Source: Adonisia turfae CCMR0081
GTDB lineage: Bacteria > Cyanobacteriota > Cyanobacteriia > Phormidesmidales > Phormidesmidaceae
Reading direction: 5' to 3'
DNA: 64,000 nt
NCBI RefSeq assembly: GCF_011009555.1
Contig: NZ_QXHD01000004.1
Coordinates: 2,129,985 to 2,193,984 of the forward strand
The notes below the pieces were generated by a model. That model worked only from the letters and a program-made list of their open reading frames with translations. It made no database searches and had not been told where the DNA came from. Of this stretch, positions 27,695 to 37,176 are shown one piece after another (the first letter of the stretch is position 1; each line of letters opens with the position of its first letter). The position numbers and the translations under genes are program-made.

Positions 27695-28564
27695 ATGTGT
27701 GTGTATCTATCAATGAGTCGTCGAGCAGCCCCTAAAGAACGTGTTAAGTTTTGGCGTGATCCGGCGTTGCGTGGTTTAGAAATGCTCCATGCCACGTATG
27801 TGACATACGCTTTCTCGCGTCATGCCCATGAGGGATTTGGCATCGCCATTGTCGAGTCAGGCGCAATGGAGTTTGACTATCGTGGTGCCAGTCATATTGC
27901 GCCCCCTGGGAGTGTGGTGATTACTCACCCTGGTGAAATGCATACGGGGCATGCGGTCTTAGAGACAGGGTGGACCTATCGAACGCTTTTGCCAGCTATC
28001 GATTGGCTACAGCAGGCTGCCAAAGAGTTGAGTGAATGTTCAGGGGCAATTCCCTACTTTTCATCTCCTGTTATCCAAGATAAGTGCCTTAATCAAAAGT
28101 TAGTTAATCTCCATCGCACGCTCGAAACATCTCCCTCATCCTTAGAAAAAGAATCTCGTTTTTTATGGGGCTTAACGCAGCTAGTGCATGGATATGCCAG
28201 CAATCGTCCCCAGATAAAATCTGTTGGCAAAGAAAATTATTCTGTTCAACAGGTCCGAGAGTATCTTCACTGTCACTACACCCGTAATATTTCACTGGAC
28301 GAATTAGCTAGGCTGACAAACTTAAGCCCATTTCGTTTGCTGAGAGCATTTAGGAAACAGGTTGGCTTACCTCCCCATGCTTACCTCAATCATGTGCGTG
28401 TTCATCAGGCTAAAACCCTTCTAGCTGAAGGACATCCCATTGCTGAAGCAGCTCTAGCGACTGGCTTTGCCGATCAAAGTCATCTGCATCGACACTTTAA
28501 AAAAATGCTTGGGGTAACCCCTGGACAGTATGTCCAAGGCTGTCGACTTATTGCTGTCAGATAA
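27695..28564 (+). CDS. AraC family transcriptional regulator with cupin sensor
   Basis: 289 residues from the ATG at 27695; a second ATG at 27713 (MSRRAAPKERVKFW) is an equally good start. The N-terminal AraC ligand-binding cupin includes FSRHAHEGFGIAIVESG and PPGSVVITHPGEMHTG with metal/ligand-site histidines. The C-terminal AraC HTH pair: NISLDELARLTNLSPFRLLRAF, with its core LDELARLTNLSPFRLLRAF, and EAALATGFADQSHLHRHFKK. Relatives often control amino-acid exporters or transport genes; the target here is unclear, since neighbours are a precursor transporter and a convergent nitroreductase. Confidence 0.92.
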   Translation: MCVYLSMSRRAAPKERVKFWRDPALRGLEMLHATYVTYAFSRHAHEGFGIAIVESGAMEFDYRGASHIAPPGSVVITHPGEMHTGHAVLETGWTYRTLLPAIDWLQQAAKELSECSGAIPYFSSPVIQDKCLNQKLVNLHRTLETSPSSLEKESRFLWGLTQLVHGYASNRPQIKSVGKENYSVQQVREYLHCHYTRNISLDELARLTNLSPFRLLRAFRKQVGLPPHAYLNHVRVHQAKTLLAEGHPIAEAALATGFADQSHLHRHFKKMLGVTPGQYVQGCRLIAVR

Positions 28565-28622
28565 TCATCAGTTGCCTTAAACAATCAGAGAGTAGCACTG
28601 TTTAACAGCATACATGCAGCGG

Positions 28623-29837
28623 TTATGCAATATTTCCTACAGTCACTAAGTATAAGGCTGCTTCTTCTATACCATCGATACCTAATAATTCATTGAGTGC
28701 ATCGTCGAAGAAAGCACCAACACCGCAAACACCAAGCCCCAAGGCTGTAGCGGCTAAATATAAATTTTGACCTAGATGTCCGGCTTCCATTAGGACATAG
28801 CGATAGGTGCGTTCGTGATATTTCCAGCGAGTGCGTTGGAAAATGCCTGAGATCACAAAACAAACCTGTGCTTCGCCCAGAAACTCTTGGTTTAAGCCTG
28901 CTCTGATAAGTGGCTGACGGAGGTCTCCAGATTGTACCAATTCTAACCGATGATGCTCCACAGCATGGTGATAAAGTCCTGGCTCTAATCCTTCGACGCG
29001 GTGGACAATCGGATAAATTTCTAAAGGATAGAGCGCTCCAGAAGAGGGCACTGTCCGAAACTCTCGCTCATCCCAGGTGATGCCTTGAGCTAGATATAAC
29101 AATTGGGAAAGTGTATCTAGCGATATCTGGCTCTGGGGGTTGTAGTTACGGCGCGATCTCCGAGTGGTTAAAGTTGTCGCTAGATTCAGCGTAGTAGGTG
29201 ATGATTCCTCTGAGAGGGGAAATTGGGGCAGTTCAATTTGCTGGGCATCTGGATAAATCTTGTACAGTGATGGCGCTTGTCCCCAATTGAAAATAGTGGC
29301 AATGGCTTCCCCATATCCAGGCTGACTCCACCTATGGTAAAGCTGCCCTATATCCTGATTGACATCAGAATTGACATCAGAGAGGCCACCGGGTTCTGAA
29401 GGGGAAATAAAACGCTCAAAGCCAATGCCAGTGGCGATGGCCAAAATAAACAAAAGAAGATTACGGCGTCCGCTGTTTGGTAAGACGACTTGTTTAGGGG
29501 GAAGAGGTGGGGCCGCTGTTGATTGGCCTGTGGCTGTTGATTGGCCTGTGGCTGTTGATTGGCCTGTGGCTGCTGATTTAGGGTGAACTTTGGTTAGGGA
29601 AGGTTCTTGAGGGCGATCTCGCAATCGATTGCGCATAAAGGCTTTAACCCGAGTCCAGGTTTGGATGAGATGAATTGTGGCTAGGGTGACCCACAAATAC
29701 CCCACCTGACTGTGAAAGCCAAAGTGATGCAGCCCCATTGTATCGGCGATGAGTCCGGTGATAAAAACGTAGATGCTGCTACCCATGAGCAGGGTAATCA
29801 CCACATAGTCAAGATCGCGCCGTTTTACTATTGCCAT
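28623..29837 (-). CDS. Membrane-anchored SagB/ThcOx-type nitroreductase with N-terminal DUF4405-like domain
   Basis: 404 residues. Residues 1-70 form two helices with internal histidines (H37, H38, H42, H56), resembling the DUF4405/cytochrome b-like domain. A low-complexity linker (88-108) carries three SATGQS-type repeats. A third helix lies at about 125-142. From about 165 to 404 is a SagB-type FMN-dependent nitroreductase: TTRRSRRNYNPQSQISLDTL, RTVPSSGALYPLEIY and a C-terminal GLGVCGVGAFFDD. SagB proteins include azoline dehydrogenases of peptide modification, but no precursor peptide or cyclodehydratase gene is adjacent, so this is more likely a redox enzyme fed through the membrane domain. 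Confidence 0.85.
   Translation of the reverse strand: MAIVKRRDLDYVVITLLMGSSIYVFITGLIADTMGLHHFGFHSQVGYLWVTLATIHLIQTWTRVKAFMRNRLRDRPQEPSLTKVHPKSAATGQSTATGQSTATGQSTAAPPLPPKQVVLPNSGRRNLLLFILAIATGIGFERFISPSEPGGLSDVNSDVNQDIGQLYHRWSQPGYGEAIATIFNWGQAPSLYKIYPDAQQIELPQFPLSEESSPTTLNLATTLTTRRSRRNYNPQSQISLDTLSQLLYLAQGITWDEREFRTVPSSGALYPLEIYPIVHRVEGLEPGLYHHAVEHHRLELVQSGDLRQPLIRAGLNQEFLGEAQVCFVISGIFQRTRWKYHERTYRYVLMEAGHLGQNLYLAATALGLGVCGVGAFFDDALNELLGIDGIEEAALYLVTVGNIA
29521..29574. repeat. 18-base tandem repeat, three copies, in coding sequence
   Basis: Three consecutive copies of GATTGGCCTGTGGCTGTT, the last with one change (CTGCT). In the minus-strand gene they encode a repeated six-residue ATGQST unit in the linker between membrane and nitroreductase domains. 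Frame-neutral, so copy number can vary without breaking the gene. Confidence 0.9.
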
Positions 29838-30252
29838 AGGCCCCCATGAAGCGCTTGTCTAATAGTCTAGCGAGCCGTTGTGGGATGTGCGTAGGGCCTA
29901 TCAAGAGTTTTTGAGCAAAGCATCTCGACGGCTAAGGAGTACCACCTATGTTGACAATGCTCTGTGTGGAATAAAACCAGCGCAAAGCTGGCTATGGGGG
30001 CAGATGCGCTGGTTGCTTCGACAGCGACTACTATCCAAAATAAGCCGCTGAGCCTAACTTTTATTAGACCCATTGCATCTAAGAAAGCATTAAGATCATC
30101 ATGAGATTGCTCTCATGATTTGAATCGTTTGCATTGAATCGCCTTGATGTCAGAAACGTATACTGCCTTGATAAAGATGACTAGAAGACCATATAACCTC
30201 ATATACTGGCAAAGTTGGATGACTAATACTGAATCCTTAACGAACTGAGCCA
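29838..30252. other. 415-base divergent intergenic region with a perfect hairpin
   Basis: Space between the divergent nitroreductase and histidine-kinase genes. The clear feature is a perfect stem ATCATGAGA (30098-30106), loop TTGC, TCTCATGAT (30111-30119), about 135 bases before the kinase start. It may be an operator or mRNA leader hairpin. A minus-strand frame at 29867-30073 has no coding character. Confidence 0.45.
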
Positions 30253-31755
30253 TTGGACTTATCTTTTCTCAGAAAGCGCTTATTTGCACCGTTTTATGCC
30301 AGCTTTACGGTGTTAGTTGTCCTGCTATTAGCTCAGGAAGTGCTGAGTGTAGCCGTGAGTGTTGCCAGACAACGAACCTCCCAAGAGATTACTAAGACCG
30401 TTGAAATCAAGCGTGAAAGCGAGCGCCTACTGAGATCTGCCTTAGAAGAAAAAGTGGCCCTGCGTGGATATTTGCTTAGCGAAAATGAGGATTACTTACA
30501 ACAGTATCAAGCTGGACGTCAACAGTTTGAATCAAGTTTGGCAACTCTTTCAACCCTTTTAGCTCAGGATCCATCTCAGCAGGGTACTCTATCGCTGATT
30601 GAAACCTTTCATAATCAGTGGCTACGAAAATTTGCACAGCCGGTTGTCGATGGCTCATTTGATCGAAATAGCTTAGCGGAGGAAAGTTCATTAGATACTC
30701 TGAGGGAAGCAGTCAATCGCATTCTAGAGTATGAGAAGTCTATCCTAGAAGCACAGAATCAGCGACTAAACCGTCTAAATCGCTTAAATGTTTGGGGCTT
30801 AGGCCTCAGTGGTACTGCCATTGTGCTAATTGTTGTTGGCAGTGCACTGAACTTAATTCTGCTACGCCGTCGTATTCTCACACCTTTAAGACAACTTATA
30901 AGGGTCGGGGATAACTGGCGGCATGGTCAATTGGATAGGAGAATTCAGCATGTGTCAGAAGATCCGATGGGAGACCTGGCAACTACGCTGAATGGTATGG
31001 CTGAGGGGATCAGCGTACGGCAAGAACGGATTCAACAACGCAATCAACAGCTAGAAGATTTAATCGGTACACTATCCCACGATTTACGGACTCCTTTGTT
31101 GGCTAACCGTGGTACCCTCAACGCTATTGTTGGAGGGGCATTCGGTCCAGTGAGTAATTTGCTCAAAGATTTGTTAGAAGACTATCGTGAAGCTAACGAT
31201 AACTTGATTAAGCTAGTGGAGGCACTGCTAGATATTAGTCGCTATGAAGCGGGGGGTAGTCAGCTACTTAACTGTGAACCTTTGAACTGGGATAAAATTT
31301 GTAATCGGGTGATTGTTTGGGAGCAAAATAGCTCGGAAGGGAAATGTGTATTAGAGGTCAACATCGCGTCTAAGATTCCGGTCGTGTACGGTGATGCCAT
31401 CGAAATTCAAAGGGTTTTGCAAAACCTAGTCGATAATGCTGTACGGCTGAGTAAGCCAGGGAAGCCGGTTTCAATTGCAGTGACATCGCGGCATGATTTA
31501 AGTGTGTATGTAGCCGTACGTGATCAGGGACCAGGTCTTAAGGAGGAAGAGATCGGCTTGTTGTTTTATCGGTTTTCTCAAGTTGCAGGCCGTCAAGGAC
31601 GAGCTGGTCTGGGCCTCTACCTCTGTCGGCAAATTATCGAGGCCCATGGCGGTAAAATTTGGGTAGAGAGTATTCCAGGTAAGGGGGCTACCTTTTGGTT
31701 TATGCTACCGATGAATGCCCTTACATGTGATGTCCCCAGCTTGGAGTCTGGTTGA
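30253..31755 (+). CDS. Sensor histidine kinase (CHASE3-like, HAMP, HisKA, HATPase)
   Basis: 500 residues with a TTG start (30253). Order: membrane helix at about 12-32, an extracytoplasmic four-helix CHASE3-like domain (33-175, with ALEEKVALRGYLLSENEDYL), a second helix at 178-205, HAMP (206-258), the HisKA box LIGTLSHDLRTPLLAN (phospho-His about 276), then the ATPase with N-box QRVLQNLVDNAV, G1 VRDQGPGL and G2 AGLGLYLCRQIIEAHGG. All kinase boxes look intact. It lies 15 bases before a NarL-type regulator, its probable partner. CHASE3 ligands are unknown. Confidence 0.95.
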   Translation: MDLSFLRKRLFAPFYASFTVLVVLLLAQEVLSVAVSVARQRTSQEITKTVEIKRESERLLRSALEEKVALRGYLLSENEDYLQQYQAGRQQFESSLATLSTLLAQDPSQQGTLSLIETFHNQWLRKFAQPVVDGSFDRNSLAEESSLDTLREAVNRILEYEKSILEAQNQRLNRLNRLNVWGLGLSGTAIVLIVVGSALNLILLRRRILTPLRQLIRVGDNWRHGQLDRRIQHVSEDPMGDLATTLNGMAEGISVRQERIQQRNQQLEDLIGTLSHDLRTPLLANRGTLNAIVGGAFGPVSNLLKDLLEDYREANDNLIKLVEALLDISRYEAGGSQLLNCEPLNWDKICNRVIVWEQNSSEGKCVLEVNIASKIPVVYGDAIEIQRVLQNLVDNAVRLSKPGKPVSIAVTSRHDLSVYVAVRDQGPGLKEEEIGLLFYRFSQVAGRQGRAGLGLYLCRQIIEAHGGKIWVESIPGKGATFWFMLPMNALTCDVPSLESG

Positions 31756-31770
31756 CGTTTCGAGGTAACT

Positions 31771-32427
31771 ATGGCAACTGCTCCTATTCGTGTTCTTTTG
31801 GTAGAAGATCATGCCCTAATGCGGCGTGGCTTATCGGGACAGTTTCGCTTAGAAGATGACTTTGAAGTGGTCGGCGAGGCTGAAAACGGTCAGCAGGCTA
31901 TTGAGCTAGCAGCTCAACTACAGCCTGATATTATTTTAATGGATATTGAAATGCCTATTCTGGATGGTATTTCAGCAACTCAAGCCATTAAAGCAACAGA
32001 ATCGGAGAGTCGAGTACTGGCATTGAGTGCTTTCGGTAAAGATAGCCAGGTCGTGGGTATGCTGGCAGCGGGGGCAGATGGCTATTGTCTCAAAAGTATT
32101 GAATGGCAGCAGTTAATAGCAGTGTTACGGTTGATCCAGGGCGGCGGCACCTATTTAGCGCCGCAGATTGCCCACAAGCTTTCTTCAATGTTGAAATCAA
32201 CGACAGCCCCGGTTCCCGCTCAAGATAAAGCACCTTCGATGCTTACGGATCGCGAGCGTGAGGTTTTGCAACTGATTAGTGAAGGTTGTTCAAATCAAGA
32301 GATTGCCGATCAGCTTTACCTATCCTTAGGCACCATTAAGGCGTATGTGCGTACTATTTTGAATAAACTCAGTGTTGATGACCGAGTGCAAGCTGCCGCC
32401 AAAGCCGTTCGTGAAGGTCTGATTTAA
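31771..32427 (+). CDS. NarL/FixJ-type response regulator
   Basis: 218 residues. Receiver domain (about 5-122) with acidic pocket VEDH (E11, D12), phospho-acceptor D58 in ILMDIEMP and the conserved Lys in YCLKSIEW. A LuxR-type HTH follows (about 153-215): LTDREREVLQLISEGCSNQE and LGTIKAYVRTILNKL. It starts 15 bases after the histidine kinase, which fits a two-gene operon. Targets unknown; the nearest downstream gene is the carbonic-anhydrase-like protein. Confidence 0.96.
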   Translation: MATAPIRVLLVEDHALMRRGLSGQFRLEDDFEVVGEAENGQQAIELAAQLQPDIILMDIEMPILDGISATQAIKATESESRVLALSAFGKDSQVVGMLAAGADGYCLKSIEWQQLIAVLRLIQGGGTYLAPQIAHKLSSMLKSTTAPVPAQDKAPSMLTDREREVLQLISEGCSNQEIADQLYLSLGTIKAYVRTILNKLSVDDRVQAAAKAVREGLI

Positions 32428-32730
32428 GCCTGTGCCATCTGCGGATAGCCAGGTGGATATCTGGCAGACTATCCACTGGAACCATAGAAACGGTCAATAG
32501 ATAGTATTACAAATCATCATGTCTAAGCCATAGTAATGGAGCACATGCAGCATGGCTGCTATGGGAGCTGTTTATTCAAGTTGGCTGTGAATCATTTTTC
32601 TCCACCCCATAACCTTTATAAATAGTCTTGTCCGTTTTCAACGGACAAGATCGTTTTAATCAATAGTTTTAGGATGGCTCCTCGCTGTCGTCTCTCTTGA
32701 GAGAGGTACTTTATATGGAGCTTTCTATCT
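32428..32730. other. 303-base intergenic region
   Basis: Lies between the NarL-type regulator and the carbonic-anhydrase-like gene. The only strong feature is the hairpin at 32627-32649, listed separately. A shorter CTCTC/GAGAG stem lies near 32690-32706. No small ORF stands out. Confidence 0.5.
32627..32649 (+). terminator. Strong hairpin between NarL regulator and CA-like gene
   Basis: CTTGTCCGTT (32627-32636), loop TTC, AACGGACAAG (32640-32649): a perfect 10-base stem followed by a short T stretch (cgttttaa). It could end the kinase-regulator transcript, although it is 200 bases downstream, or act in the leader of the next gene. Confidence 0.5.
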
Positions 32731-33486
32731 ATGTCGTGGCTATCAGCTAAGCATTTACTGTGTCATCACTGGATGAAGTCTTTTTTAATAATTTTGGGAA
32801 TTGTTGGCGCTTTTATTGCTGGCACTCTTATTAATCAGAGATCTTATTACTCATCATATAAAGGGATAGCAATCAGGCCATGTCCTGACAAGCAACGACA
32901 GTCTCCCATTGAACTCCAAACCACCATTCAAGTGGATTTAACTCCGTTACAGTACGATTATCATTCTGTTCCTCTGACAGTTGTGCACAATGGTAATACT
33001 ATTCAGGTTAATTATCGATTTGGTAGTACGCTGACCCTGGATGAACAGCTGTATACGTTAGAGGAAGTGCATTTCCAGGCTCCGAGCGAACATGTTGTCG
33101 CTGGTATGCCCTATGCGATGGAAGTTCAACTTGTGCACCGCTATGGTGAGCACGTTGTAATTGTAGGAGTATTCGTTGAAGTTGGGGAAGGTAATCCTGT
33201 GATGCAAAGTATCTGGGACCATATGCCTGCCACACCAGGGCTCAAAAAGACTTTTGACAATGTAGCGATTGATGCTGCTCAATTATTACCTGACAACCTA
33301 AGGGCTTACTACCGTTATTCAGGTTCTTGGACAGAGCCACCCTACAGTGAAAGTGTTACGTGGATTATTATGAGAGATCCGATTACTCTTTCTATTACCC
33401 AGCTAGAGCAATTTATCGCTGTTTTAGGTGAAACTGCCCGACCTGTTCAACCTCACCATAATCGATTGATTTTAGAAGCGAACTAG
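32731..33486 (+). CDS. Membrane-anchored alpha-carbonic-anhydrase-related protein, zinc site lost
   Basis: 251 residues with an N-terminal membrane anchor (about 16-34), so probably periplasmic. The alpha-CA fold is recognisable: CPDKQRQSPIEL (51-62), VHFQAPSEHVVAGMPYAMEV (113-132), WTEPPYSESVTWIIM (200-214). Of three zinc histidines only the first remains (H114). The second is Gln (Q116 in HFQ, family HFH) and the third is Gln (Q133 in MEVQLVH, family MEAHLVH). The gatekeeper Thr is Glu (E202) and the usual second disulfide Cys is Tyr (Y205). It should not hydrate CO2. The reading frame is intact, so it is a diverged protein and not a pseudogene. It sits between two-component genes. Confidence 0.88.
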   Translation: MSWLSAKHLLCHHWMKSFLIILGIVGAFIAGTLINQRSYYSSYKGIAIRPCPDKQRQSPIELQTTIQVDLTPLQYDYHSVPLTVVHNGNTIQVNYRFGSTLTLDEQLYTLEEVHFQAPSEHVVAGMPYAMEVQLVHRYGEHVVIVGVFVEVGEGNPVMQSIWDHMPATPGLKKTFDNVAIDAAQLLPDNLRAYYRYSGSWTEPPYSESVTWIIMRDPITLSITQLEQFIAVLGETARPVQPHHNRLILEAN

Positions 33487-33599
33487 GATGTTTCCAGCTT
33501 ATTTAAGAGATATTTCTAGCTTATTTAAGATACGGTTTTGTAGCAATTGGGGTCTTATTGCCAATGTTTTCTCTTTCTCAACCTTGCCCTATAACTGCT

Positions 33600-34283
33600 A
33601 TGAGCCGTATTTTGATTATCGAAGACTCTCCCCGCGTGGCATCTTTCCTGGAGAAAGGGCTGCGGGCAAATGGCTATACCCCAACCATTATAGATAATGG
33701 GGACGATGCGATCGCACTTGCCCTCCACCAACAGTTTGACCTGATCATCCTCGACTTAGGGTTGCCGAATAAAGATGGTCTAATTGTGCTGGATGAGTTT
33801 CGAGGGCAAGGTATCTCCGTGCCAATTATTATTCTTTCTGCTCGTCATGAAATTAACGATAAAGTCGCTGGGTTTGAGCGGGGTGCTGACGATTATTTGA
33901 CCAAGCCATTTCGGTTTGAAGAATTGCTAATGCGGATCCAAGCTCGTCTACGCAATGCCCATCTCCAACAGACCCACATCGACACATCTAATACTTACAT
34001 CCTAAGATTCCGAGAGGTTGAACTAAATTTGCATTCTCGCGAAGTACGTGTAGCAGGACGCTCGATTAAATTGTCAGCTCGAGAATTTATTCTTGCTGAA
34101 ACGTTTCTGCGCCATCCTGGTCAAATCTTAAGTCGAGAACAACTATTGGATCACGTCTGGGGATACGACTATGATCCAGGCTCCAATATTGTTGATGTGT
34201 ATATTGGCTATTTACGCAAAAAACTGGGCCGCCACTTCATTGAGACCATTAGAGGGTTAGGCTACCGTTTGAAACATGAATAA
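33600..34283 (+). CDS. OmpR-type response regulator
   Basis: 227 residues from the ATG at 33600 (MSRILIIEDSPRVASFLEKG); the frame extends back to 33558, but the extra 14 residues lack similarity. Receiver with E8/D9, phospho-acceptor D52 (IILDLGLP) and Lys in YLTKPFRFEE. The C-terminal winged helix (about 130-225) has LSAREFILAETFLRHPGQIL and VDVYIGYLRKKLG. No histidine kinase is adjacent on this side; the kinase at 30253 pairs better with the NarL regulator. Closely resembles the receiver-only gene that follows. Confidence 0.96.
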   Translation: MSRILIIEDSPRVASFLEKGLRANGYTPTIIDNGDDAIALALHQQFDLIILDLGLPNKDGLIVLDEFRGQGISVPIIILSARHEINDKVAGFERGADDYLTKPFRFEELLMRIQARLRNAHLQQTHIDTSNTYILRFREVELNLHSREVRVAGRSIKLSAREFILAETFLRHPGQILSREQLLDHVWGYDYDPGSNIVDVYIGYLRKKLGRHFIETIRGLGYRLKHE

Positions 34284-34368
34284 GCTCTCATCGCTGTATC
34301 ATCGAGATTTTAATATCGTCTAGCATGCTGAACAGTAGCACAGTGTGAACGAATATTAAATTCTGAAT

Positions 34369-34758
34369 ATGGCCAAGATTTTACTTGTGGATGATGAACC
34401 TCGAATCGTCACATTCTTAGAAAAGGGACTTAGGAGACAGCATCACCAGCCTGAATCAGCGTTTAATGGTCGCCAGGCTCTGGATATAGCTCTTTCTGAG
34501 TCTTTCGACCTGATCGTTTTAGATTTGGGTTTGCCTGAGCTCGATGGATTTGATGTATTAATGAATTTACGCAAAATGAATCAGTCTCCACCGGTTGTGA
34601 TTATTACAGCCCTTGGAGAGTCCGACTGCGCTCGAGCGATTGAGCTGGGAGCCGATGACTGTCTGCATAAGCCGTTTCGATTTGGTGAGTTATTGGCCAA
34701 AATCAAACGCCTTTTAGGAGAAACAGAACAGAACATTGCAGAAGCTAAGGTCGGCTGA
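34369..34758 (+). CDS. Single-domain response regulator (receiver only)
   Basis: 129 residues, receiver domain with D8/D9, acceptor D52 (IVLDLGLPELDG) and Lys in CLHKPFRFGE. No output domain: the frame ends soon after helix 5. FLEKGLR and KPFRF are shared with the preceding OmpR receiver at the same positions, which suggests local duplication with loss or never-gain of the DNA-binding domain. It may act as a phosphate sink or by protein contact. An 18-base-arm hairpin follows its stop. Confidence 0.93.
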   Translation: MAKILLVDDEPRIVTFLEKGLRRQHHQPESAFNGRQALDIALSESFDLIVLDLGLPELDGFDVLMNLRKMNQSPPVVIITALGESDCARAIELGADDCLHKPFRFGELLAKIKRLLGETEQNIAEAKVG

Positions 34759-34772
34759 GGACGTCAGGTTTT

Positions 34773-34809
34773 CCAGCCCTAATCCATAGAATCTATGGAT
34801 TAGGGTTGG
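34773..34809. terminator. Long near-perfect hairpin between convergent genes
   Basis: 18-base arms (34773-34790 and 34792-34809; one G-T mismatch) built on CCCTAATCCATAGA and its complement, lying between the stop codons of the receiver gene (34758) and the convergent CNNM gene (34823). Works as a candidate bidirectional terminator; T-rich bases flank it on the left (ggttttcc). Confidence 0.7.
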
Positions 34810-34822
34810 AGAGATGGTGCCG

Positions 34823-36127
34823 TCATCCTTCATCTTCGCAGGGATTACGTTTGGGTGTGATTAGTACCTTATCCACCCGATTACTGTCCATGTCCATCAC
34901 TTCTACGACGAATCCATTCCAATCAAAGCGATCGGTTGCTGTGGGAATGCGCCCAAGTTGGTGAATCACTAGGCCCCCCAGGGTATAGTAGCTAACTGTT
35001 TTATCAGAAAAGTCTCCTAATTCAAGACAGTAATAGACATCCTCAATATTCATCATGCCGTCGAGTAGCCAGGATCCATCTTCCCGTTGGCGCGGCTGAT
35101 CGCCAGGTTCGTCCAGAGATGGCGCATCTCCCACGAGGGCTTCCAGAATATCCCACAGGGTGACTAATCCCTGAATGACGCCATATTCATCAACCACAAG
35201 AGCGGTGTGCACACGCGAACGTTTGAACTGCTCGAGTAGGGGTAGCGATCGCGATATTTCTGGAATCACCAGGGGCTGTTCCAGATCTACGGTTAAATCT
35301 AAAGGATTTTGGTTCAGGGCTCGATTTAATAGGGAGTTAACACTGACCAGACCGAGAATATTGTCTAAACTACCCTGGCATACGGGTAGACGACGATAGC
35401 GACTGGCAATAATCTTGCGTTGATTTTCTGTGGCAGTATCTTCTAAATCTAGCCACATGATTTCAGGGCGTGGCGTCATGATAGAGGTAACTTGGCGGTC
35501 TCCAAGTCGAATCGCCCGTTCCATGATTTCCCGTTCAGCGACCTCTAACGTGCCTTCCTCAGTCCCTTGTTGAATAAAGGCCCGAATTTCTGCTTCCGTG
35601 ACACTGGGGCCACGGTCGGGTTGAATATTCAGGACGCGCACCACTAGGTTGGTTGAAAAGCTAAGCAGGGCAACAATGGGAGCGGCTAGTTTTGAGAGGG
35701 TCGCCATGGGCCGAGCAATGACTTTTGCAATGGCTTCGGGCATGGTCAGCGCCACTTGTTTGGGCACTAGCTCCCCTAAAATCAGTGATAGATAGGTGAT
35801 AATAGCAACCACCAGCGGAAAAGCCAGGGTATTGGCATAGGTCCCCAAACCAGGAATCTTATTAATCAAGGCGGCCATAGGGGCTGACAGGGCCTGGCCT
35901 CCAAAGGCACCACTGACAATGCTGATCAGGGTGATGCCCACTTGCACCGTAGAGAAAAAGTTATCGGGACGTTTAGATAACTTGAGGGCCGCCTGGGCAC
36001 GACGATCACCGTTGCGAGCAGCTTGCTCTAGGCGCACCTTGCGAGCTGATACAATGGCCAGCTCAGACATGGCAAACACGCCATTGGCAATGATTAACGC
36101 CAAAATGATCAGAATATTCGTGAGCAT
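34823..36127 (-). CDS. CNNM/CorC (hemolysin-like) transport protein
   Basis: 434 residues from the ATG at 36127 (MLTNILIILALIIANGVFAM); a TTG at 36139 is the frame limit. N-terminal DUF21/CNNM membrane domain (about 1-190; ELAIVSARKVRLEQAARNGD and LGELVPKQVAL), two CBS domains (about 205-330; VTSIMTPRPEIMWLD, VVDEYGVIQGLVTLWDILEA), then a CorC/HlyC C-terminal domain (about 345-430). The family takes part in magnesium/cobalt homeostasis, probably as Na+-coupled Mg2+ efflux. The hemolysin label is historical. Confidence 0.94.
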   Translation of the reverse strand: MLTNILIILALIIANGVFAMSELAIVSARKVRLEQAARNGDRRAQAALKLSKRPDNFFSTVQVGITLISIVSGAFGGQALSAPMAALINKIPGLGTYANTLAFPLVVAIITYLSLILGELVPKQVALTMPEAIAKVIARPMATLSKLAAPIVALLSFSTNLVVRVLNIQPDRGPSVTEAEIRAFIQQGTEEGTLEVAEREIMERAIRLGDRQVTSIMTPRPEIMWLDLEDTATENQRKIIASRYRRLPVCQGSLDNILGLVSVNSLLNRALNQNPLDLTVDLEQPLVIPEISRSLPLLEQFKRSRVHTALVVDEYGVIQGLVTLWDILEALVGDAPSLDEPGDQPRQREDGSWLLDGMMNIEDVYYCLELGDFSDKTVSYYTLGGLVIHQLGRIPTATDRFDWNGFVVEVMDMDSNRVDKVLITPKRNPCEDEG

Positions 36128-36228
36128 AAGAGCAAGCAAACAGCAGAATCTTTATCCTACTATTAGTCTGTTGTCTCCCTCTTTGATCACTGCTGATTTG
36201 AGCAGCATACCTGAGTGTTGCACCAAGT

Positions 36229-37176
36229 TTAAACGTTTACTCTTGTGAGCCAACTATTGTAGTGCGGCTCTTTCCCGAGCGTTATCGATTGAAGACTTTC
36301 CCGAAGCTGATGGGTTATGGGCTGCATTGAGGGAAGATCATAATTCTCAATACTCAAAACAGGTGTAATTTGAGCAGCAGTTCCTGAGAGAAAAATCTCG
36401 TCAGCAATAAAAAGCTCAGATTTATCAACAGGCCGCTCTATGACTGGTATGTCTAAATTCTCGGCAATGGTAAGAATGCTGTCGCGGGTGATGCCTTCTA
36501 AAATGTCTTGGTCAAAGCTTGGGGTAATCAGCTGGCCATTTCTCACCAGAAATAGATTCATGGCAGACGCTTCGCTGACCTTACCTTGGGAGTTCATCAG
36601 GATGGCTTCGTCAAAGCCGGATTCTACGGCTTCGGTTTTGGCGAGGGCTGAGGCAATATAGGCGGCGGTGGTTTTACCTCGGAGGGGCTGGCTACGATCT
36701 TCTTGCCGTGCCCAAGAGCTAATGCGACAGCGCACACCATTGCGGGCAAGATAATCTCCCATGGGTACACCATAGATTAGTAAATCTTTTTCGACTTGGT
36801 GAAATCGAGGAGCGACACCCAGCCCAGACGTGTAAATCAACGGCCTGAGATAGAAGGCTGTAGCAGGCTGATTGCGTTGTACAAATTCAATGAGTGTTGC
36901 TTGAAGTGCATCTGGGGAAAGGTGGTAGCCCATAAATTTAGCGCTGTTGCTCAGGCGCTGACAGTGGGCCTCAAGACGAAAAATCAACGCTTCTCCGTCA
37001 ATGATGAAACCGCGAATGCCGCCGAGAACAGCGGTGCCATAGTGGAGTGCATGGGTGGCGATAGAAATTCGAGCTTGGTCAAAGGGGACAAACTGATTGC
37101 GAAAATAAGCCGTCGGCAGAAAATTAGGTGCTGCGAATTTGGCCTCGGCAGGGCGCTGAAGCGTGGTGATACTCAT
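36229..37176 (-). CDS. ilvE: Branched-chain amino acid aminotransferase
   Basis: 315-residue class IV PLP aminotransferase interconverting Leu/Ile/Val and their 2-oxo acids with 2-oxoglutarate. Motifs: FDQARISIATHALHYGTAVL near the N-terminus, the PLP lysine in the KTTAAYIASALAK region, the class IV signature EAILMNSQGKVSEASAMNLF and DEIFLSGTAAQITPV. Start ATG at 37176 gives MSITTLQRPAEAKF. Divergent from a TrmB-like regulator 84 bases away, which may control it. Confidence 0.95.
   Translation of the reverse strand: MSITTLQRPAEAKFAAPNFLPTAYFRNQFVPFDQARISIATHALHYGTAVLGGIRGFIIDGEALIFRLEAHCQRLSNSAKFMGYHLSPDALQATLIEFVQRNQPATAFYLRPLIYTSGLGVAPRFHQVEKDLLIYGVPMGDYLARNGVRCRISSWARQEDRSQPLRGKTTAAYIASALAKTEAVESGFDEAILMNSQGKVSEASAMNLFLVRNGQLITPSFDQDILEGITRDSILTIAENLDIPVIERPVDKSELFIADEIFLSGTAAQITPVLSIENYDLPSMQPITHQLRESLQSITLGKEPHYNSWLTRVNV

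Follow-up and report, generated by a model that had tools for sequence, protein, structure and literature searches.

Vertebrates, insects, nematodes, viruses and Toxoplasma are known to have inactive relatives of the carbonic anhydrases (CAs) (PMC5437132). In the vertebrate proteins CA VIII, X and XI, one, two and three of the zinc-binding histidines are missing, respectively (PMC9032886, where XI is printed as IX), and CA VIII, with one histidine missing, is inactive (PMC9032886). Some CAs reportedly stay active after a single ligand change (PMC5437132). Among the matches listed in the open-licence PMC literature, none was an inactive CA relative from a bacterium.

Here we describe a bacterial gene whose product looks, in functional terms, to be a CA-related protein. 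We analyzed a window of 64,000 nt (by which we mean the whole stretch of DNA) from Adonisia turfae CCMR0081 (genome G000; assembly GCF_011009555.1, contig NZ_QXHD01000004.1, positions 2,129,985 to 2,193,984 of the forward strand). The gene, at 32731 to 33486 on the plus strand of the window, encodes a putative alpha-CA-fold pseudoenzyme of 251 amino acids, as judged from its frame, profile match, PDB match and predicted fold. It is shared with Leptolyngbya sp. PCC 7375 (G015). That two close cyanobacteria carry an unbroken, CA-shaped protein in which the zinc/CO2 site is mostly replaced suggests retention for a non-catalytic job.

Family, fold and active-site residues

The initial annotation had proposed an intact frame and a relationship to the alpha-CAs, and both points are borne out. 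An unbroken frame starting with ATG spans the whole gene. Its product matches PF00194 (E value = 4.5e-34, 118.6 bits against a Pfam cutoff of 27), with protein residues 50 to 248 aligned to positions 12 to 251 of the 254-position profile. A phmmer search of the PDB matched it to 6im0 (E value = 1.8e-41), and the predicted structure of the protein has the alpha-CA three-dimensional fold; a search of NCBIfam at an E value of 0.001 returned no family match for the protein.

Active-site positions were read by alignment to relatives and are given in hCA II numbering (in part as in PMC5437132). Two of the three zinc histidines are glutamines, as first annotated. In H-F-Q (codons 114 to 116; 33070 to 33078, plus strand), His94 is kept as H114 and His96 is replaced by Q116, and within M-E-V-Q133-L, His119 is replaced by Q133 (codon 133; 33127 to 33129, plus strand). 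The site reads His-Gln-Gln, in place of the three zinc histidines (His94, His96 and His119) of a catalytic alpha-CA or the His-His-Gln of an eta-CA; with two histidines missing, the protein falls within the definition of a CA-related protein as one in which at least one zinc histidine is missing (PMC5437132). The gatekeeper threonine, which had been read as glutamate, is in fact present. That reading was one residue off: the conserved SLTTPP has become SWTEPP, so that within W-T-E-P-P-Y (codons 200 to 205; 33328 to 33345, plus strand), Leu198 has given way to Trp, T201 is the retained Thr199, E202 takes the place of Thr200, and Tyr stands where the disulfide Cys would be. The gate pair of a catalytic alpha-CA, Thr199 and Glu106, is retained (T201 and E120), as is the Glu117 equivalent (E131).

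Further replacements, beyond those noted at the outset, are Q92E, F93V, V143I and L198W, together with the loss of conserved N-terminal Trp positions. Val143 (codon 144; 33160 to 33162, plus strand) is presumably a CO2 pocket position. The His64 position, which also varies among the relatives (28 of 58 rows have His), is Asn. Across 43 relatives, a set without the rows of the altered gene, L019 (interrupted by Ns) and the divergent L020, 49 columns were conserved in at least 90%; the altered protein keeps 36 and changes 13. The changes fell on 6 of 11 active-site columns and 7 of the 38 others (one-sided Fisher test, P value = 0.026, with the active-site list being our own choice). The disulfide had also been described correctly, with conserved Cys51 (32881 to 32883, plus strand) retained and Tyr205 at its partner position. 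Its loss alone would mean little, because Anabaena EcaA is also described as having no disulfide, unlike Synechococcus EcaA (PMC9570166). In the structure model, confidence is reduced at the T201-Y205 loop (block 75), which is uninformative on the altered site because the His-His-His relative L006 dips at the same place (80).

Distribution, constraint and descent

A protein search covered 63 genomes of the order and a 386-genome phylum sample. Alpha-CA matches were found in 14 of the 63 genomes, with the altered protein in two (the window genome and PCC 7375), and in 41 of the 386, own genome included. Four rows were the altered gene itself. Besides these, 58 rows were read, and all 55 that had the ligand positions in one frame were His-His-His. 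The 55 include L019, which an assembly gap interrupts beyond the ligand positions, and exclude a gene with six stops and no usable frame (G209), a gene broken into three pieces (G297, which accounts for the other three of the 58 rows) and a 38-residue piece from the window genome (L021). An exact-peptide scan of genome contigs found PCC 7375 as the sole ortholog, and this ortholog is likewise without the three histidines. We also searched the 386 phylum genomes with a degenerate DNA pattern encoding H-F-Q-x-x-(S, T or one of a few other residues)-E-H, obtaining 34 matches in 30 genomes, compared with 6 for the reversed pattern. One match was the window gene; of the other 33, we read 12 as possible H-F-Q alpha-CAs and rejected them, their frames being 11 to 53 codons long with no CA signal in six frames. 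Five phage records had weak alpha-CA matches, and 179 plasmid records had matches at below 60% identity. On a Skermanella plasmid (L124), a gene for a HAMP-containing chemotaxis receptor comes after an alpha-CA gene, another case in which a CA adjoins a sensor gene.

Catalysis need not depend on the altered gene, because PCC 7375 also carries an unbroken His-His-His alpha-CA (L018). The window genome's own other His-His-His alpha-CA (L085, 6541 to 7173; G000:C11, about 3802.5 kb) is cut near its end by 10 Ns, and the matching C-terminal piece, L021, is found some 2.7 Mb from it, at about 6519.3 kb of G000:C11. This is either a misjoined assembly or a rearrangement; in PCC 7375, the gene is unbroken.

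Random scatter of substitutions had been named as a sign that the gene was in recent decay. The window and PCC 7375 copies differ at 28 nucleotides and 12 residues, with no stop and no indel. Both strains have the same residues at the altered sites, all 12 differences lying elsewhere, which argues against ongoing random decay of the site. Nonsynonymous change is low (residues 1 to 250, dN = 0.019, dS = 0.100, omega = 0.19), and omega falls inside the range of 11 other genes of the region (0.02 to 0.37). In a neutral simulation with 27 changes, the probability of 11 or fewer nonsynonymous changes was 0.0013, and 69% of the simulated copies had a stop. Because only two close strains carry the gene, the constraint rests on 28 nucleotide differences and these tests have little power; moreover, the neutral yardstick is uncertain because the adjoining intergenic stretches differ by 3.6% and 1.8%, below the synonymous rate of the altered gene. 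One of the 12 differences, Y43S in PCC 7375, changes a column that is conserved in relatives, so erosion may be continuing in the N-terminal part, which is already reduced. The proposal that selection keeps a non-enzymatic protein stands in part: the metal site is dismantled and the frame seems to be under constraint, whereas the absence of catalytic activity is something that we infer.

In the best tree, the altered pair groups with His-His-His CAs of the Leptolyngbyaceae (G011, G012, G014 and G016), with support of 82/91. The grouping is not strong: the pair's position is unsure because of its own long stem, and an alternative tree that places the pair with the genus's other CA was not rejected (p-AU = 0.33). 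The stem before the pair has 1.62 changes per column and the tips have 0.03 and 0.02, a pattern suggesting that the protein once changed fast, changes slowly today and acquired its replacements well before the two strains parted. In G016, the CA of the Leptolyngbyaceae group directly adjoins an rsmI-like gene, and clpP lies beyond it; homologous gene order points to the same arrangement in G014. The same rsmI-like/clpP stretch is present without a CA in G000, G015 and G013 (in G015, with about 5 kb of other DNA further along), and the altered gene sits elsewhere, between NarL-type and OmpR-type regulator genes. At this two-component locus, the intergenic DNA is too diverged to place the ends of a CA insertion.

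Regulatory neighbors, leader DNA and probable membrane anchor

The altered gene is flanked, as initially annotated, by a CHASE3-like kinase/NarL pair and OmpR-type receivers, and it has the same position between regulators in both carriers. The functional tie to the two-component genes that had been drawn from this setting did not find support. G018 (71 to 86% identical) and G016 (66 to 80%) also have the kinase, NarL, OmpR and receiver genes side by side, with no CA between them, and the distance from the kinase end to the start of the conserved OmpR gene is 1.08 to 1.09 kb in these two genomes, compared with 1.85 kb in the window. Because G018 and G016 have the regulators without a CA, either the regulatory set is older than the arrival of the CA, or the CA was lost elsewhere. 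In G058, genes for a SagB-like dehydrogenase, the kinase and NarL stand side by side. The window, too, has a gene for a SagB-family dehydrogenase adjoining the kinase gene (28623 to 29837, minus strand), which differs from its PCC 7375 copy by 16 gap positions and contains a short TGQSTA repeat.

Between the NarL and CA genes lies a predicted terminator-like hairpin (32625 to 32651) that folds in both strains; five terminator-like sites were found compared with 2.2 expected by shuffling, which is weak evidence. Its three-base loop is TTC in the window and GAA in PCC 7375, i.e., inverted. The CA leader (window 32610 to 32730) is predicted to fold strongly (z = −4.6 and −3.8 in the two strains), and a further predicted hairpin (32676 to 32722, plus strand) would pair GGCUCC with the putative Shine-Dalgarno sequence GGAGCU. 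Rfam had no match at gathering scores in window 28000 to 37000. The downstream OmpR gene is 71 bases from the CA gene, and cotranscription of the two is possible. Directly 3′ of the CA stop codon are two tandem 22-nt copies that are 91% alike (33487 to 33530).

The initial annotation had also assigned a membrane anchor, and the sequence is compatible with one. There is a single strongly hydrophobic segment at codons 17 to 35 (32779 to 32835, plus strand; Kyte-Doolittle mean of 2.16 over 19 residues), which fits an N-terminal signal anchor or a signal peptide, and the structure model has a helix at residues 12 to 38, at low confidence. The protein is probably membrane anchored and probably exported, lying outside the plasma membrane.

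Explanations and known systems

We think it likely that the gene encodes an exported, probably membrane-anchored alpha-CA pseudoenzyme of a two-strain Leptolyngbya lineage, descended from the EcaA type, with its zinc site lost and purifying selection acting now. The ancestor would have been an ordinary cyanobacterial alpha-CA of the EcaA type, from which the zinc site and a portion of the CO2 pocket disappeared along the long stem branch, and purifying selection would now hold the altered gene. Tethered outside the plasma membrane, the CA fold would act by non-catalytic binding of a partner protein, or of a small ligand in the remodeled cleft, the mode assumed for animal CA-related proteins; the binding function is one that we infer. 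More tentatively, cyanobacteria may have turned the CA fold into a zinc-free domain for binding or sensing, tethered to the membrane, with a remodeled cleft (H114, Q116, Q133, W200 and E202) that recognizes a new partner or ligand. One version of the pseudoenzyme reading, which we regard as very unlikely, makes the protein an accessory sensor that detects CO2, bicarbonate or some other ligand for the CHASE3 kinase/NarL or OmpR/receiver genes. The location between regulators in both carriers would fit it, as would an older proposal, quoted in PMC9570166, of EcaA proteins as surface CO2 sensors, but G018 and G016 have the same regulatory genes without the CA, the terminator-like hairpin separates NarL from the CA, and what has been lost is the very site at which CO2 would be expected.

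The gene might instead be a non-functional remnant too young for stops, which we consider quite unlikely. Its restriction to two strains, flanking intergenic DNA that diverges as little as the gene and a conserved N-terminal residue still being lost (Y43S) are what a remnant might display; set against these are the nonsynonymous deficit (P value = 0.0013) with no stop or indel, the unchanged altered sites and the long stem, along which the changes are apparently old relative to the strain split. It also seems unlikely that metal is still bound via H114, Q116, Q133 and perhaps E202, with weak or altered catalysis, as in the eta-class Plasmodium CA with His-His-Gln. Two ligands are changed rather than one, pocket positions 143, 198 and 200 are now bulkier or charged, and the Toxoplasma gondii protein TgCA_RP, with two ligands lost, was inactive, although restored histidines did not revive it, so that its inactivity may have other causes (PMC5437132). 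This has to be weighed against the retained Thr199, Glu106 and Glu117 equivalents, the fact that both changes are from His to Gln, a possible metal ligand, and the activity of the Plasmodium falciparum enzyme (PfCA) with Gln for His119 and, in reduced form, of His94Asn hCA II (PMC5437132).

If the pseudoenzyme reading is confirmed, a CA fold has been kept after its zinc site was lost in bacteria too. Since PCC 7375 has both the altered gene and an unbroken His-His-His alpha-CA, a non-catalytic role for the CA fold is testable there, including the idea of EcaA proteins as surface sensors (PMC9570166).

Among described proteins, the cyanobacterial EcaA-type alpha-CAs (L005 to L008) are 43 to 46% identical to the altered protein and share with it the predicted fold, most of the conserved structural residues and the Thr199, Glu106 and Glu117 equivalents; the altered protein differs in the replacement of two zinc histidines by Gln, in T200E, L198W, V143I and Q92E, and in the loss of the disulfide Cys and the N-terminal Trp positions. 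Dioscorin (4twl) is a plant protein with other roles. TgCA_RP is similar in that two ligands are changed, one of them His119 to Gln, and in that the gate Glu and Thr are kept; its other loss is the first histidine, to Phe, whereas in the altered protein it is the second, and TgCA_RP is closer to the eta-CAs, GPI anchored and 519 amino acids long (PMC5437132). PfCA shares the Gln at the third ligand but keeps the other two histidines and is active (PMC5437132), and because an enzyme with one Gln ligand is active, weak metal binding by the altered protein is conceivable. Vertebrate CA VIII, X and XI are likewise alpha-CA relatives with zinc histidines missing. Unlike them, the altered protein is bacterial, has a probable N-terminal anchor and has cyanobacterial proteins as its nearest rows in a tree without vertebrate rows, and this cyanobacterial kinship points to an origin separate from that of the animal CA-related proteins.
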